Below are positions 34,707 through 47,593 of a stretch of 64,000 bases of DNA, piece by piece; within the stretch, counting starts at the first letter, position 1, and each line of letters opens with the position of its first letter. The notes beneath the pieces are model-generated. The model was not told the DNA's origin and did not search any database. It was given only the letters and a program-made list of their open reading frames with translations. The DNA is from Zhongshania aquatica (lineage in GTDB: Bacteria > Pseudomonadota > Gammaproteobacteria > Pseudomonadales > Spongiibacteraceae): NCBI RefSeq assembly GCF_027257955.1, contig NZ_JANZNQ010000002.1, forward strand, positions 248,001 through 312,000, given 5' to 3'. Made by a program: the position numbers and the translations under genes.

Positions 34707-36293
34707 ATGGCAAATACAACCGCGGGCAGCAAAAATATTGCTGCCTCTGGCAAAGTCCTGCGGGTTCGCACCGCAACACTGGCAGATATACCGGCAATTG
34801 CAGCGCTATCTAAGCGCGTCTACACCGGCACTGGTATTGACCCTTACTCTCGCGCTGAATTACGCGGCCAACTTAATAATTTCGCTGAGGGGAAATTCGC
34901 AGTCACCCTAGACGAAGAAATTGTCGGCTATTGCGCGACCTTTCGAGTCAGCGGCGAGGTCTGCTTAAGACCACACAGCTGGGCGTCTATTACAGCAAAT
35001 GGCTACGGCACCCGACATGACCCCGAAGGGGAATGGCTATACGGTATGGAGGTGTGCGTAGACAGCAGCGTTCGCGGCTACCGTATTGGTCAGCGGCTCT
35101 ACAATGCCCGTAAAAAATTGTGTGAAGAACTCGGCTTAAAAGGCATTGTTTTTGTTGGTCGCCTACCAAGTTTGGCGCGACGCATTAAAAAATATGGCAC
35201 CGCCGAAAACTACCTGGACGCCGTGGTAAATCAAAGAACGCGGGACCCAGTATTGTCGTTCCAGCTCCGCAATGATTTTGAAGTCATCGACCTCATGCCA
35301 AACTATTTGGTCGATGACAAAGACTCAATGGGTTATGGCGTGCATCTGGTATGGCACAACCCGAAAGTTGAAACTGCCGCGAATGTCGCGCACACAAAAC
35401 GTCATGGTGGTCGTCAACCAGACACTGTCAGGGTGGGCACGGTGCAATATATGCAGCGGCGCGTGACCTCATTCGTCGAGTTCATGTCTTTCATCGAATA
35501 CTTTGTCGACGTGGTTGCCGACTACAAAGGCGACTTTGTGGTATTCCCGGAGCTCATCACCCTGCAGTTGCTGTCTATCGAAGATCAAGAGTTAACACCG
35601 ATTCAGTCTATCGAAGCACTGACCAAATATACGCCTCGCTACGTTGAAGCGATGCAAGACTTAGCCGTGCGATACAACATCAATATCATTGGTGGATCGC
35701 ACCCTACTCGCGTCGCCAACGGCAGGGTTGAAAATATCTCCTACGTCTTCCATCGCGACGGACGCGTCGATGAGCAGGCGAAAATTCACCCCACGCCAAA
35801 TGAGGTGTATTGGTGGAATATTGAAGGTGGCAACGAGTTACAAGTTATCGATACCGATTGCGGCCCCATCGGCGTGTTAATTTGCTACGACTCTGAATTC
35901 CCAGAGCTTGGTCGTCACTTGGTAGATCAGGGCGCGGAAATTCTGTTTGTGCCTTTCTGTACCGACGAGCGCCAAAGCTATATGCGAGTGCGCTATAGCT
36001 GTCAGGCTAGAGCCGTTGAAAATCAGGTCTATGTGGTTATGTCTGGCAATGTCGGCAACTTACCCAACGTGGCCAATATGGATATTCAATACGCGCAGAG
36101 TTGCATTCTCACACCGTGTGACTTCCATTTTGCCCGTGATGGTATCGCCGCCGACACCACCCCGAATGTGGAAACCGTGGCCATTGCTGATTTGCGTCCT
36201 GAATCTTTACGGATAGCTCGCAACAGCGGCACGGTGCAGAACTTACGTGATCGCCGTCACGACCTTTATCAAATGAAATGGCGGGGGAATTAA
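34707..36293 (+). CDS. GNAT acetyltransferase-carbon-nitrogen hydrolase fusion protein
   Basis: Residues about 17-200 form a GNAT N-acetyltransferase (RVRTATLADIPAIAALSKRVY; VRGYRIGQRLYNARKKLCEELGLKGI as the acetyl-CoA region). Residues about 240-520 form a nitrilase-superfamily hydrolase with the catalytic Glu in FPELI, Lys in AKIHPTPNE and Cys in GVLICYDSEFPE. The fusion is a recognised architecture in proteobacteria, but its substrate is not settled. A coupled acylation and amide hydrolysis is the natural inference. It is monocistronic or paired with the DUF6489-like gene. Confidence 0.93.
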   Translation: MANTTAGSKNIAASGKVLRVRTATLADIPAIAALSKRVYTGTGIDPYSRAELRGQLNNFAEGKFAVTLDEEIVGYCATFRVSGEVCLRPHSWASITANGYGTRHDPEGEWLYGMEVCVDSSVRGYRIGQRLYNARKKLCEELGLKGIVFVGRLPSLARRIKKYGTAENYLDAVVNQRTRDPVLSFQLRNDFEVIDLMPNYLVDDKDSMGYGVHLVWHNPKVETAANVAHTKRHGGRQPDTVRVGTVQYMQRRVTSFVEFMSFIEYFVDVVADYKGDFVVFPELITLQLLSIEDQELTPIQSIEALTKYTPRYVEAMQDLAVRYNINIIGGSHPTRVANGRVENISYVFHRDGRVDEQAKIHPTPNEVYWWNIEGGNELQVIDTDCGPIGVLICYDSEFPELGRHLVDQGAEILFVPFCTDERQSYMRVRYSCQARAVENQVYVVMSGNVGNLPNVANMDIQYAQSCILTPCDFHFARDGIAADTTPNVETVAIADLRPESLRIARNSGTVQNLRDRRHDLYQMKWRGN

Positions 36294-41503: not shown

Positions 41504-44197
41504 ATGAACAGTATTATGTTTTTAAAACCGCCATCAAGCCTTGCATCTGCCATCATTTTATCCACCGCAGCGAGCCTCTCACTCACCTCCGCCGCCAATG
41601 CACAAGACGTTACTAGAATTCTCAATATAGGCGCCTTACTGGCACCCAAAAGCGCCCAAGGTGTAGCTAATAGCAAGTCGATTCTAGCCCCCATCACCAA
41701 ACCTCTCGGTGACTCACTTGCGCCTTTAGTTGATGCCGTAGACATTGCGCTCGACCCACTGACAGACCCTATCGACGACCAGCTCGGCGCCCCATTACTT
41801 GGTGCACTAGCGCCAATTACAGATCCACTACTCGACGCTCTTCAGCCGGTAACCGATCCCGTTGATGGCATCATTGCTGATCTAACAGGTGGCAGCGTAA
41901 GCGACGCACTGAGCAATATAGATAAAAATGTGGCTGACGGAGATGGCATTGTTAACGATCTACTCGGCGGACCACAGGTTCCCGGCAGCGGCACAGAGGC
42001 TGGCGAGGTGTCGCCACTCGGTTCGATCAGCGCTGCTTTGGGTGCATCACTCGAACCTCTTATCAACGCCATTGATCTCGGTCTAGACCCACTTACCGAC
42101 GTCGTTGACGATCAATTACTAGAACCAGTTCTCGACGCACTAGCACCGGTATCCGACCCTTTGCTTAAGGCTATTGAGCCTGTCACGGACCCAGTAGACG
42201 GCCTAGTAGCCGACTTGACCGGTGGCAGCCTTGAGGACGCCCTAACAAATATTGACGACAATACTGCAGACGGAAACGGTGTCGTAAACGACCTTCTCGG
42301 TGGCGAAATAGCCAACACCGCTAGCGGCACCGAAGCGGGAGAGGCATCGATCTTGGCCCCGATATCCGAACCACTCGGCCAGTCCTTAGACAACCTTATT
42401 ACAGCTGTAGACACCGCATTAGACCCGATTACAAACGCGGTCGATGATCAGCTTGGCGCGCCACTATTAGATGCCTTGGCGCCTGCCGTCGATCCACTAC
42501 TGGATGCCGTACAACCTGTCACCGATCCAGTGGATGGCTTAATCGCAGACTTAACTGGCGGTAGTGTTGAAGATGCCCTGACGAATAGCGACGACAACAC
42601 CGCTGACGGCGACGGCATTGTTAACGACTTACTTGGCGGCAACAGCGCGTCATCAGCAGGCGATGGCAGCGAAACCTCGCCTCTCGGCCCAATTTCCACC
42701 TCCCTTGGTGAAGGCTTAGCCACATTAATCGACGCTATCGACACTGGCCTAGACCCGTTGACTGACGTGGTTGACGATGAGCTATTAGAGCCAGTTCTTG
42801 AGCAACTAACACCGGTTACCGAGCCCGTATTAGCCGCACTTGAGCCCGTTACCAGTCCTGTTGATGCGCTAGTGTTCGACCTAACCGGCGGCAGCTTAGA
42901 AGACGCCCTCACCAACAACGATGACAATACCACGGACGGAAATGGCCTCGTCAATGACCTACTTGGCGGCGGCAGTGAAAACACCGACAGTGGCAGCGAA
43001 GCCGGAGAGAGCTCTGCCTTGGCCCCCATTACTGGCCCCTTAGGCGACTCAATCAACAATCTGGTCACAGCCCTAGATACAGCACTTGACCCTATTACTG
43101 ATGCAGTTGACGATCAAGTTGGGGAGCCATTATTAGATGCCTTAGCACCAGCAGTAGATCCGTTACTAGATGCTGTACAACCAGTAACCGACCCTGTCGA
43201 TGGCATTGTTGCGGATGCTACCGGCGGCAGTCTTGAGGACGCGCTGACGAATACCGACGACAACACCGCTGACGGTGATGGCATTGTCAATGATTTGCTC
43301 GCCGGCAACAGTGGGGATACCGGTGAAACATCGCCACTTGAACTAGTAACCGAGCTCGCAGGTGATGCACTCGCTCCATTAATTGACTCACTAGACGAAG
43401 GCCTAAACCCATTAACCGATGTGGTTGATAGCCAACTGGGCGAAGAGCTAATCGCTGCGCTATCACCTGCAGTAGATCCAATCTTGTCGATGGCAGCGCC
43501 TATCACCGATCCACTGGATGGCGCGGTAGCCGACCTCACTGGCGGTAGCTTGGAAGACGCACTAACCAACAACGACACCAACACCAGTGACGGCAACGGT
43601 ATTGTGAATGACACACTCGGTGGCGGCGTGAATGGAAACGGCAGTTTAGGCGGCGGCCTAGGGAATGGCCCCTTCGATCAACCAGCACTGATTGCACTGC
43701 TAGATCGCGACCTGATGGCGAGCAACCCCAACAGCGGCCAAGGTAGCTGCGCAGATCAGGACGCCGATGGTGTGTGTGACGAGCAAGATGAATGCCCTGA
43801 AACACCCATTGGCAAAGCAGTACTTGCCAACGGGTGTCACCTCAGTGAAGCTGCACCGCTGCGTTTGGATGGTGTTTTCTTTGAGTTTAACAGTGCTACG
43901 CTAACTGCAAACGCCACCAGAATTCTCGATCAAGCCGCTGCGGTAATCCAACAATCTGACGCTAAAATGATCGAAGTAGCTGGCCATACCGATGACAAAG
44001 GCAGCGACATGTACAACCTAAACTTATCGCAAAACCGCGCGCAATCAGTAAAGCGTTACCTGACCGACCATGGCGTAGAAAGCGATCGCCTAAGTGCTCA
44101 GGGTTACGGCGAAAGCAAACCCATTGCCGACAATCTTAGCGATGCAGGCCGTGCAGAAAATCGCCGCGTCGAACTGTCAATAATCAACGCCGAGTAA
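41504..44197 (+). CDS. Secreted six-repeat acidic protein with C-terminal OmpA domain
   Basis: The 897-residue protein has a signal peptide (about 1-34, ending ANAQD), six acidic repeats of about 97 residues (60-707), a short Gly/Asn-rich spacer, a thrombospondin-type-3-like Ca motif with Cys residues (DQDADGVCDEQDECPE, about 751-766), and an OmpA peptidoglycan-binding domain (about 787-895; FFEFNSATLTANA, VAGHTDDKGSD, LSQNRAQSVKRYL). Each repeat reads roughly LDPLTDxVDDQL...PVTDPVDG...DLTGGSLEDALTN...NDLLGG. The start could also be ATG 41516. It is followed after 65 bases by a TpsB-like transporter gene. Probable location is periplasm or outer-membrane surface, tethered to peptidoglycan; function unknown. 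Confidence 0.85.
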   Translation: MNSIMFLKPPSSLASAIILSTAASLSLTSAANAQDVTRILNIGALLAPKSAQGVANSKSILAPITKPLGDSLAPLVDAVDIALDPLTDPIDDQLGAPLLGALAPITDPLLDALQPVTDPVDGIIADLTGGSVSDALSNIDKNVADGDGIVNDLLGGPQVPGSGTEAGEVSPLGSISAALGASLEPLINAIDLGLDPLTDVVDDQLLEPVLDALAPVSDPLLKAIEPVTDPVDGLVADLTGGSLEDALTNIDDNTADGNGVVNDLLGGEIANTASGTEAGEASILAPISEPLGQSLDNLITAVDTALDPITNAVDDQLGAPLLDALAPAVDPLLDAVQPVTDPVDGLIADLTGGSVEDALTNSDDNTADGDGIVNDLLGGNSASSAGDGSETSPLGPISTSLGEGLATLIDAIDTGLDPLTDVVDDELLEPVLEQLTPVTEPVLAALEPVTSPVDALVFDLTGGSLEDALTNNDDNTTDGNGLVNDLLGGGSENTDSGSEAGESSALAPITGPLGDSINNLVTALDTALDPITDAVDDQVGEPLLDALAPAVDPLLDAVQPVTDPVDGIVADATGGSLEDALTNTDDNTADGDGIVNDLLAGNSGDTGETSPLELVTELAGDALAPLIDSLDEGLNPLTDVVDSQLGEELIAALSPAVDPILSMAAPITDPLDGAVADLTGGSLEDALTNNDTNTSDGNGIVNDTLGGGVNGNGSLGGGLGNGPFDQPALIALLDRDLMASNPNSGQGSCADQDADGVCDEQDECPETPIGKAVLANGCHLSEAAPLRLDGVFFEFNSATLTANATRILDQAAAVIQQSDAKMIEVAGHTDDKGSDMYNLNLSQNRAQSVKRYLTDHGVESDRLSAQGYGESKPIADNLSDAGRAENRRVELSIINAE
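41681..43624 (+). repeat. Six tandem in-frame ~97-codon repeats in A-B alternation
   Basis: Units lie at about 41681-41971, 42014-42304, 42350-42640, 42680-42970, 43016-43303 and 43334-43624, separated by linkers of about 10-15 codons. Units 1, 3 and 5 share openings such as LAPI...PLGxS and DDQLGxPLLDALAP. Units 2, 4 and 6 share openings such as PLGxI and DPLTDVVDxxL. The true period is therefore a two-unit block of about 670 bases repeated three times. Unit 6 is the most diverged of the B type. Confidence 0.88.
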
Positions 44198-44262
44198 CCA
44201 CAACACCTGCGGCCCGTCACAAGGCGGGCTAATGAATTCTTTTACTTTTTAGGGAGAGTACC

Positions 44263-45936
44263 ATGGCAATCGATTTGCCCCCGGTAATACCACCACAGTT
44301 AGCAACCCCCGCACAGGTCAGCGCGTACAGCGCAGTCTCTGCCACCGAGATCTCAGCTACCATCAACGGCACCAATGTGCGGGTCTTAGGGAACCGCTAC
44401 CTATCAGACAGCGATGTTAAAGGCGTTCTTAGCGCCGCCAAAACGCCAGCCGAAGGTATCATCAATCTGACCAAACGCTACTACCAAAGCGGCCACTTGC
44501 TCGTCAGAGTGCGCTATGCCCGAGAAGGCAACGACGTGGTGGTGTTTGTCGAACAACTCACCTTGTCAGAAATTAAAGCAGATGCGGATATTCTTCCCTA
44601 CTTTGACGGCCTTAACGGCGACACCGATTTAAGTTTTTCCGAATTTGATAAAGCCCGCATCCTAGCGAACCTAAAAGCAGAGCGCGGCGGTTACGAATAC
44701 AGCATGTCATACGAAGAAACCGGCACCAATGCGGTTGCTTTGGTCATGACAAAAACCGCTGTCGAAAAATACGACAGCACAGACCTTATTTTAGAGGCAA
44801 ACAACAAAGGCAGCCGTTTCCTTGGCCGCTATTTCGGCTTAGCCGGTGTTAAACACCGCTTTGAAAGTGGCACAGAGCTGTCTCTTGCCTACCAAACTGC
44901 GTTTACAGACTTAGGCGAATCCCGCGACGGTGAAGACCTCGATCAATTCAGTCTCTCCATTGATCACCCCTTTGTTAGCGGCCTATACGGCATCGACTTG
45001 TCGTATGTTGAATACAGCCGCGACCCTAAATTTGCTCAAACTCGGCAGGGATTATGTTTGCTGGGCTTACTAGACTGTGGCACCACGACCACGATCACGA
45101 CAGTAAATCTTGATGCGGAAATTCTCCAAGCCGCGTTCCACGGCGAACAAATTCTGTTCAGCAACGTCGAGTCACGTATCTCTTTAACTGAGAAGCTTAC
45201 CCATACTGACTCCACCCTAGAACAGGCAGGAACCAAAGGAAAATTACTTGAGGAAACCTATCAGGTCATCGACATTGGACTTAAATATCAAAAAACGCAG
45301 TACAAAACCGAGGAATTGCCCGCGGCACAACTCTATGTCGGCCTGAACTTTTTAGCCGGTTATGGCGACGGTGGCACGCTGGACAATTACGACGAATACC
45401 AGGCCGCCTACAAAACTCAATTTCCTGGCACGGCTGTCCCAGATGTAGTTCCGGCAGCACGTACGGCGGAATTCCTCGCCCTGTTACCCAACGCGCGGTA
45501 TATGGTTGGTATTGCAGATGACACCGTTCTGTCGTTTTCTGCCAATGGCCAATTTGCCGATGAGCAGCTGCCACAGCAGCAGCAATATGTATTGGGTGGC
45601 ATGAACACCCTAAGCGCTTACTTACCCGGCGTTTTAATCGGTGATCAAGGCTACTACGTAGATGCCAGTCTGGAGAAAACCTTTACGTTTAACGACTTTA
45701 AAATTTCACCGTCTGCGTTTATCGAGTACGGTGCTGCGTGGTTTAACAATACCAATAGTGAGCTGGGAGATGTTCAAAGCATCGCCGATGCCGGTGTTAA
45801 GTTAAGAATAGAATTTAGCGACTACCTATTCACAGAGTTTGTTGCCGCCCTGCCTGTTTACGACGATGTGGCTAATAGCGACGAACTAGATGCTTTAGAG
45901 GCAGACTTCTTCTGGCGCATTCGCTTTACCTTTTAA
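44263..45936 (+). CDS. ShlB/TpsB-like POTRA-barrel outer-membrane transporter
   Basis: The 557-residue protein has a POTRA domain at about 25-110 (RVLGNRYLSDSDVKGVL; YYQSGHLLVRVRYAREGNDVVVFVEQ) and a C-terminal barrel with a TpsB-type QQQQYVLGGMNTLSAYLPGVLIGDQGYYVDASLEK and a terminal F (FFWRIRFTF). This is the two-partner-secretion transporter family. ATG 44263 has AGGGAGAG upstream. The in-frame TGA at about 44232 blocks any extension, and the N-terminus MAIDLPPVIPPQLATP is not a signal peptide. The partner substrate is presumably the repeat protein upstream. Either an unusual targeting route or a degraded start is implied. Confidence 0.85.
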   Translation: MAIDLPPVIPPQLATPAQVSAYSAVSATEISATINGTNVRVLGNRYLSDSDVKGVLSAAKTPAEGIINLTKRYYQSGHLLVRVRYAREGNDVVVFVEQLTLSEIKADADILPYFDGLNGDTDLSFSEFDKARILANLKAERGGYEYSMSYEETGTNAVALVMTKTAVEKYDSTDLILEANNKGSRFLGRYFGLAGVKHRFESGTELSLAYQTAFTDLGESRDGEDLDQFSLSIDHPFVSGLYGIDLSYVEYSRDPKFAQTRQGLCLLGLLDCGTTTTITTVNLDAEILQAAFHGEQILFSNVESRISLTEKLTHTDSTLEQAGTKGKLLEETYQVIDIGLKYQKTQYKTEELPAAQLYVGLNFLAGYGDGGTLDNYDEYQAAYKTQFPGTAVPDVVPAARTAEFLALLPNARYMVGIADDTVLSFSANGQFADEQLPQQQQYVLGGMNTLSAYLPGVLIGDQGYYVDASLEKTFTFNDFKISPSAFIEYGAAWFNNTNSELGDVQSIADAGVKLRIEFSDYLFTEFVAALPVYDDVANSDELDALEADFFWRIRFTF

Positions 45937-46494: not shown

Positions 46495-46677
46495 ATGAAC
46501 AAACAAAGTAACGATATGAACGTAAAGAACCTATGTAGCCGTAAGTTGTGGGAATTATTGAAAAACGCCGAATGGCAGAGCAATACTGAACGTTTTGCAA
46601 TTGAAAGTGAATTATCTGGCCGCCGTCACTATGTTAAGGAACTCGAGCAGCTTAGCGACCGAGAAACCAGGCATTAA
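46495..46677 (+). CDS. Small hypothetical protein, 60 residues
   Basis: ATG 46495 follows AAGGAGAAAAAA, an excellent ribosome site, which favours a real gene over a chance frame; the longer frame to 46456 lacks one. The product has KNLCSRKLWELLKNAEWQ and ELSGRRHYVKELEQL, a charged helical pattern with no membrane segment. I do not recognise a family. The 3' end overlaps the convergent F-domain gene by about 25 bases. Moderately sure that it is translated; function unknown. Confidence 0.55.
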   Translation: MNKQSNDMNVKNLCSRKLWELLKNAEWQSNTERFAIESELSGRRHYVKELEQLSDRETRH

Positions 46678-47593
46678 TCAAGACGGTATAAGGCAGTAAC
46701 CCCAGCAACAACCACGGCAAGCTGCCGGACCAGAACGTTAATTGATCTTCACAAGTGCGATGAATGGTCAAGCCCAACTGGGCTGGCACCTGCTTGGCAT
46801 CGCCCATCTTAGAAACAGACGGCAACTCCACCCCCGCTAAAACCCCACTGCGTAACAGTGCAGTGGAAAATCGTTCCCCCGCCTCCACTTCCGCTGCCAA
46901 CTTAAAATATCGACGATTGATCGGTGCATCTGGCAAGCGCCGAGCAGACTGTTTTAGCGACTGAGGCAAGGTAAATCCAGCACCAATACAGTCGGCGATA
47001 TGATTCATATAGTGGTAGCTTTGGTATTGCGACAGTGCGCCACCAAGCCCAGGAATACGATAACCCAGCCCCACAAAACCCTTTCGTAAACTGCGAGAAC
47101 GTAACACCAACAGCAGCGCGCCATATATCATCGCCACGGGTAGTAAACCCGCTACCGATGCCTGCAGTGTCTCGCTCAAGGTAAACACTCCAGCGCCCAA
47201 ACCCGACAACGGCAGCAGGACTGCACAGAGAATTACCAGCAAAAGAGGAAGACGTGCGTGATCTTTTAAGCGCTGTTGAAATTCGGCTTGCAATCGATAG
47301 TGTTCGGCAAGACGCAAATACATTTTAGCGAGATTGCCAACCGCTAAGCCCAACTGCAAAAACTGCAATTCCCAGTCAAGAAAAACACCGCCATCACGCA
47401 ACTCTTCCAGCACCACCCTCTGGCCATCTGCAAATTTAGCGGCCACATCATCTAACTGCGCTCGACGGGCAGCCTGCTGCCCCTGACTCAGTAAGGCAAC
47501 AATCTGGTCCCAATTATTCTCACCGGACTGGCGGGCCTGATACAGTGACTGAAAAAGCACAAAGCGTTGTGCTGGAGAAAATCCAGAGGACAT
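46652..47593 (-). CDS. Orphan type II secretion system F-domain protein (GspF/PilC-like)
   Basis: About 313 residues with the T2SF organisation: a cytoplasmic helical domain (ELQFLQLGLAVGNLAKMYLRLAEHY), membrane helices at about 118-142, 145-165 and near the C-terminus, and a second cytoplasmic domain (YQSYHYMNHIADCIGAGFTLPQSLKQSA...EVEAGERFSTAL). GspF proteins are inner-membrane platform components and are usually about 400 residues. No pilin, ATPase or secretin gene is adjacent, so this is a lone member; it may serve a system encoded elsewhere. It is convergent with the small gene at 46495. Confidence 0.82.
   Translation of the reverse strand: MSSGFSPAQRFVLFQSLYQARQSGENNWDQIVALLSQGQQAARRAQLDDVAAKFADGQRVVLEELRDGGVFLDWELQFLQLGLAVGNLAKMYLRLAEHYRLQAEFQQRLKDHARLPLLLVILCAVLLPLSGLGAGVFTLSETLQASVAGLLPVAMIYGALLLVLRSRSLRKGFVGLGYRIPGLGGALSQYQSYHYMNHIADCIGAGFTLPQSLKQSARRLPDAPINRRYFKLAAEVEAGERFSTALLRSGVLAGVELPSVSKMGDAKQVPAQLGLTIHRTCEDQLTFWSGSLPWLLLGLLPYTVLINAWFLGR

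Follow-up and report, generated by a model that had tools for sequence, protein, structure and literature searches.

What does a secretion-type barrel do beside a repeat protein that seems built to stay on the cell wall? This question is raised by a locus in a 64,000-nucleotide stretch of the Zhongshania aquatica genome (contig NZ_JANZNQ010000002.1, positions 248,001 to 312,000; here called the window). The gene for an OmpA-tailed repeat protein, P0001 (897 codons, 41504 to 44197), is followed on the same strand, after a gap of exactly 65 bases, by the gene for a transporter resembling the TpsB proteins of two-partner secretion (TPS), P0002 (557 codons, 44263 to 45936). All features described below lie on the plus strand unless stated otherwise. 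The pair is a real, conserved TPS-like module and not an ordinary TPS pair, and its most surprising part is that the transporter lacks a signal peptide. At about even odds (a probability near 0.5), we infer a two-gene module for surface display, with the barrel as the way out for the repeats and the OmpA tail as their hold on the cell wall.

Linkage of the two genes

We scanned 57 related genomes and obtained matches in 24, of which 21 were strong and made up the whole Spongiibacteraceae sample, and 3 were weak and came from other families. The locus set comprised 71 regions with 73 barrels from the 21 Spongiibacteraceae genomes. An open reading frame (ORF) with an OmpA domain was found by profile search directly upstream of 71 of the 73 barrels, on the same strand and 16 to 209 nucleotides away. 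A diverged OmpA-like ORF upstream of a further barrel (L065) was recognised by eye, bringing the count to 72 of 73, and the exported partner at L093 has no OmpA domain. The Z. aquatica genome that holds the window carries three such barrel genes, each preceded by an OmpA-tailed gene. Barrel and partner distances were correlated over 72 pairs (Spearman 0.47); 500 within-genome shuffles of the pairs gave a mean of 0.016 with a standard deviation of 0.033 and a maximum of 0.170. The pairing exceeds chance, and the two genes form a linked, co-inherited module in the Spongiibacteraceae. The original prediction, which described an exported 897-residue repeat protein with an OmpA domain and a transporter 65 bases farther on, was accurate in coordinates and domains, and the pairing that it had staked on linkage in other genomes held, both in the count of linked barrels and in their co-divergence.

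The 73 barrels fall into five groups and one single sequence, each group having its own range of partner lengths. At L060 and L066, from two genomes of the genus, barrel-partner pairs stand two in tandem, with an OmpA-tailed partner for each barrel. At L091 (878 to 1657), the partner gene stops inside the OmpA domain and is separated from the barrel gene by 209 nucleotides, as in a shortened or broken copy.

The partner protein

P0001 opens with a signal-peptide-like segment ending in ANA (residues 1 to 33; 41504 to 41602). Signal peptides were judged here and throughout by our own heuristic and by inspection. Repeat comparison divided residues 61 to 707 (41684 to 43624) into six acidic repeats, each roughly 110 residues long, which measure 96 to 112 residues as cut here and share 55 to 79% pairwise identity. 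The region of 647 residues holds 127 Asp and Glu versus just 3 Lys and Arg. The repeats have ends resembling DxNxxDGxGxVND-LLGG, which are possible calcium sites. The bacterial collagen family PF15984 was considered for the repeats and set aside, as its score of 25.5 bits lies under the cut-off of 31.1.

Beyond the repeats, an Asp-rich linker with four cysteines, thrombospondin-3-like by eye (residues 749 to 778; 43748 to 43837), precedes the C-terminal OmpA domain (residues 792 to 887; 43877 to 44164). The domain matched PF00691 at an E value of 7.5e-26 and 90.8 bits (curated cut-off, 27.2) and contains the strict peptidoglycan-binding motif, as do 62 of the 73 Spongiibacteraceae partners; on this score and motif P0001 is a member of the OmpA C-terminal domain family. 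The models for YiaD and PA1041 were its best matches, yet both fell under their curated cut-offs. P0001 shares its C-terminal OmpA domain with envelope proteins such as YiaD, the PA1041-type anchors and Pal, but unlike them it has about 650 residues of acidic repeats before that domain and a dedicated TpsB-like neighbour. In one group of loci (L080, L084, L087, L088 and L090), the partners end in a long charged, partly Ser-rich stretch, at a place that the OmpA domain occupies in the other partners.

The TPS beta-helix domain that marks TpsA substrates (PF05860) was not found in P0001, as the original prediction had noted, or in any of 10 other passengers. Nor was it found in the 19 genomes searched, 13 of them of the genus, with the eight family genomes G013 to G020 outside this search. 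As a positive control, the same search detected the domain in 21 of 75 genomes from the class.

The transporter fold and its lid-lock motifs

P0002 matched the ShlB family (PF03865) at an E value of 1.8e-7, and 49 of 52 members of the transporter family matched it as well; no other Pfam family, the POTRA model included, reached an E value of 0.01 among these 52. Profile comparison of the family with ordinary TpsB proteins gave a probability of 99.8% and an E value of 4.7e-28, with the matched region running from residue 37 through to the C-terminus. The predicted fold (predicted local distance difference test score, 90.9) matches CdiB and FhaC across two POTRA domains and the barrel. From the secondary structure of the model and the profile comparison, the POTRA-like domains span residues 37 to 98 (44371 to 44556) and 100 to 166 (44560 to 44760), and the predicted barrel spans approximately residues 173 to 557 (44779 to 45933). 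P0002 therefore has the TpsB arrangement of two POTRA domains before an Omp85/TpsB-type barrel. The model also contains a single short helix of lower confidence at residues 16 to 25, for which the position of plug helix H1 was considered.

Family alignment placed two cysteines of P0002, C265 and C272, in one loop (45055 to 45078). Among the Spongiibacteraceae barrels, 71 of 73 have two cysteines in one loop and the other 2 have none, and the last residue is aromatic in 71 of 73. The loop cysteines and the aromatic end support the view that the barrel protein is exposed to oxidising conditions and ends up in the outer membrane.

Relevant passages of PMC4490367 give the Omp85/TpsB motifs as (V/I)RG(Y/F) at the tip of loop L6 and (F/G)xDxG on strand 13. 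By motif alignment, P0002 has LSAY in the first place (residues 450 to 453; 45610 to 45621) and FIEYG in the second (residues 486 to 490; 45718 to 45732). The Arg of the first motif occurs in none of the 73 Spongiibacteraceae barrels and none of 11 distant members, versus all eight ordinary homologues. Its loss is not universal, because 11 of 40 members from the order of Solimonas retain an Arg, always followed by Ala or Ser and never by Gly. Glu replaces the Asp of the second motif in 73 of 73 Spongiibacteraceae barrels, 11 of 11 distant members and 38 of 40 Solimonas-order members; the eight ordinary homologues have six Asp, one Glu and one Thr at this position.

The transporter N-terminus

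Export of outer membrane barrel proteins from the cytoplasm is expected to depend on a cleavable signal peptide. An N-terminal Sec signal peptide, part of the TpsB type, was absent from all 73 Spongiibacteraceae barrels and also from all 40 Solimonas-order relatives. P0002 starts instead with the conserved sequence MAIDLPP (44263 to 44283), which was found in 60 of the 73 barrels, the others having MAIDFPP (8), MAIDFPS (2), MPIDLPP (2) or MAIDMLP (1). The Solimonas-order barrels all have a start of the type M-[APSTG]-[IV] (40 of 40, three of them seemingly from GTG or TTG), and no MAID-type start was found in the ORF of a relative from Frateuria (L157).

Wherever the start of a family member is clear, residue 2 is small. 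A small residue at this position makes removal of the initiator Met likely, so the transporter Met is probably removed, leaving A-I-D-L-P-P. A degenerate form of the MAIDLPP pattern was searched in the DNA of 13 genus genomes, where 42 of 43 matches were barrel starts and the remaining one lay antisense to a ParA-like ORF; a genome from the order supplied one further match, and control searches with the reversed pattern returned none. A general export tag was therefore rejected, and the start, if a tag at all, would be private to the transporter family. A hidden RNA-level signal was also rejected, because the first seven codons showed high synonymous identity in just two of four groups (0.889 and 0.810, versus 0.481 and 0.547) and also in one of the control genes (0.733, 0.517 and 0.565).

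Relatives outside the Spongiibacteraceae

A scan of named genomes gave 55 loci, 45 of them from the Spongiibacteraceae. A sample of 369 genomes from the class contained 10 with a match; in five of them the match was weak and the protein of the ordinary type. The order of the Solimonas genome, which we take to be Nevskiales, had matches in 42 of 85 genomes, one of them just partial; the set analysed covers 40 of its 47 places, leaving out six already covered and the partial one. A tree separated the transporter family, with the Frateuria relative inside it, as a single clade (support, 0.92) from the eight ordinary homologues, and the Spongiibacteraceae barrels also formed one clade (support, 0.99).

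An exported, mostly low-complexity protein is encoded directly upstream of the barrel at 23 of the 40 Solimonas-order loci, and none of these 23 partners had an OmpA match. At two loci of distant relatives, the repeat protein and the OmpA protein are separate neighbours, in the order repeat protein, OmpA protein, barrel at L149 and repeat protein, barrel, OmpA protein at L289. Because these OmpA proteins resemble the P0001 tail (52.5% identity over 158 residues and 39.8% over 196 residues, respectively), P0001 looks like a fusion of two proteins from one system. With the OmpA domain absent or separately encoded in other lineages, the tail is optional in the wider family, and its constant core is the repeat protein with the transporter. 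The original prediction was right about the pairing, the TpsB type and the missing TPS domain, and it overlooked the signal-less transporter, the altered motifs and the optional tail.

In Solimonas aquatica (L153, 5363 to 10199), a small exported partner occurs in two tandem copies (156 and 141 residues) with a barrel that lacks a signal peptide. At L270 to L274 and L280 to L284, tiny exported partners of about 120 to 127 residues precede the barrel, possibly a minimal version of the system.

Surface display and its alternatives

In the display reading, the repeat protein would enter the periplasm with the help of its own signal peptide, and the barrel would pass its N-terminal and repeat parts to the cell surface. 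The C-terminal OmpA domain would remain in the periplasm bound to peptidoglycan, so that the repeats would be displayed, not released. The transporter itself would reach the outer membrane through Sec independently of a signal peptide, and for this route the best candidate is its conserved N-terminus, A-I-D-L-P-P once Met has been removed. A periplasmic peptidoglycan-binding part combined with displayed repeats is also the layout of intimin and invasin (type Ve) in the relevant passages of PMC3297439, although in those proteins a single chain carries barrel, repeats and an N-terminal anchor, whereas here there would be two chains with a C-terminal one. SodA of Rhizobium leguminosarum, reported in the review PMC5963308 to be exported without a signal sequence, offers a precedent for Sec recognition, but it is a soluble enzyme and the transporter an outer membrane barrel. 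No OmpA-tailed or signal-less TpsB system was apparent in literature titles and abstracts.

Several points weigh against display. Passage of the repeats through the barrel is something we infer. The mechanism of the transporter may differ, because it lacks the Arg-Asp lid lock that is characteristic of Omp85 proteins. Cysteine pairing is weak outside the Spongiibacteraceae, where a single Cys is present in 8 of 51 members. A PDB search by sequence profile returned no TpsB chain for the family, and our heuristic found no clear partner at 17 of the 40 Solimonas-order loci. Finally, the exit of the transporter from the cytoplasm without a signal peptide is hard to account for.

The strongest alternative, which we nevertheless consider unlikely, is that the pair tethers the envelope and secretes nothing, the barrel staying closed while the OmpA-tailed partner binds both the POTRA domains and peptidoglycan from the periplasm. 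The loss of the lid-lock Arg would suit a closed barrel, and among the domains of the Spongiibacteraceae partners none is as constant as the OmpA domain and its peptidoglycan-type motif. However, that domain was not found in the 23 passenger-like Solimonas-order partners, whereas an exported repeat or low-complexity partner persists, and the repeat arrays vary widely in the window's own group (partners of 481 to 1618 residues), which fits surface display better. It is very unlikely that the transporter, for want of a signal peptide, resides in a compartment other than the outer membrane and that the linkage reflects co-regulation only, given the TpsB-type fold, the paired cysteines, the aromatic C-terminus and the exported partner next door.

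An ordinary TPS pair with a merely diverged substrate was already disfavoured and is just as improbable. Like CdiB and FhaC (type Vb), P0002 has two POTRA domains and a barrel, with a fold match from residue 33 or 35 on, and an adjacent exported, repeat-rich partner. Unlike them, it has no signal peptide and just 34 residues before the first POTRA domain, versus about 57 in FhaC chain numbering; all 73 transporters lack the Arg of (V/I)RG(Y/F) and have FxExG for (F/G)xDxG. Its partner, unlike TpsA substrates, bears an OmpA tail and no TPS domain that we could find.

Least probable of all is a signal peptide missed in ORF calling through a wrong start or a frameshift: outer membrane barrels normally need one, the eight ordinary homologues have hydrophobic, signal-like starts by eye, and 12 of the 73 barrels have an uncharged hydrophobic 10-mer in their first 45 residues, but on inspection these 10-mers lie at about residues 28 to 38, within the model's first POTRA strand rather than at the N-terminal end, 68 of 73 barrels have a ribosome-site-like sequence within 20 nucleotides 5' of the start, a median of 6 codons is open upstream, at least 10 loci have a stop codon immediately before the start, 49 distant members yielded a single weak upstream hydrophobic stretch (the upstream frame there often being open, with a median of 32 codons), and conservation is among the highest at the first residues, in contrast to signal peptides.

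Intergenic features and neighbouring genes

The gap between the two genes contains a GC-rich hairpin (44211 to 44230) and, directly 5' of the transporter start, the ribosome-binding site AGGGAG (44251 to 44256). Intergenic hairpins of at least 6 pairs, at least 4 of them GC, occur at 35 of 73 loci and are concentrated in those with longer gaps; in 33 of 73 loci the score was matched by at most 1 of 20 shuffles. The hairpin may set unequal levels of partner and transporter. Elsewhere the window encodes an acetyltransferase-carbon-nitrogen hydrolase fusion (34707 to 36293) and, on the minus strand, a lone type II secretion F-domain protein (46652 to 47593). A search of a plasmid collection with the system gave no match.

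Implications

It is possible, at somewhat less than even odds in our judgment, that these transporters form a separate branch of the Omp85/TpsB proteins that dropped the signal peptide, took a new export route specified by the short conserved N-terminus M-[APSTG]-[IV]-x-[LF]-P-P and came to display wall-anchored repeats. The same tentative reading includes a rewritten lid lock, with the Arg lost or changed in context and the Asp replaced by Glu. A conserved TpsB-type barrel family without a signal peptide makes signal-independent export directly testable, and the loss of the Arg-Asp lock, held to be common to Omp85 proteins, offers a natural way to ask whether the lock is required. If the display reading is true, the repeat partners would constitute a kind of surface layer that the cell wall holds in place and whose repeat number differs from species to species.
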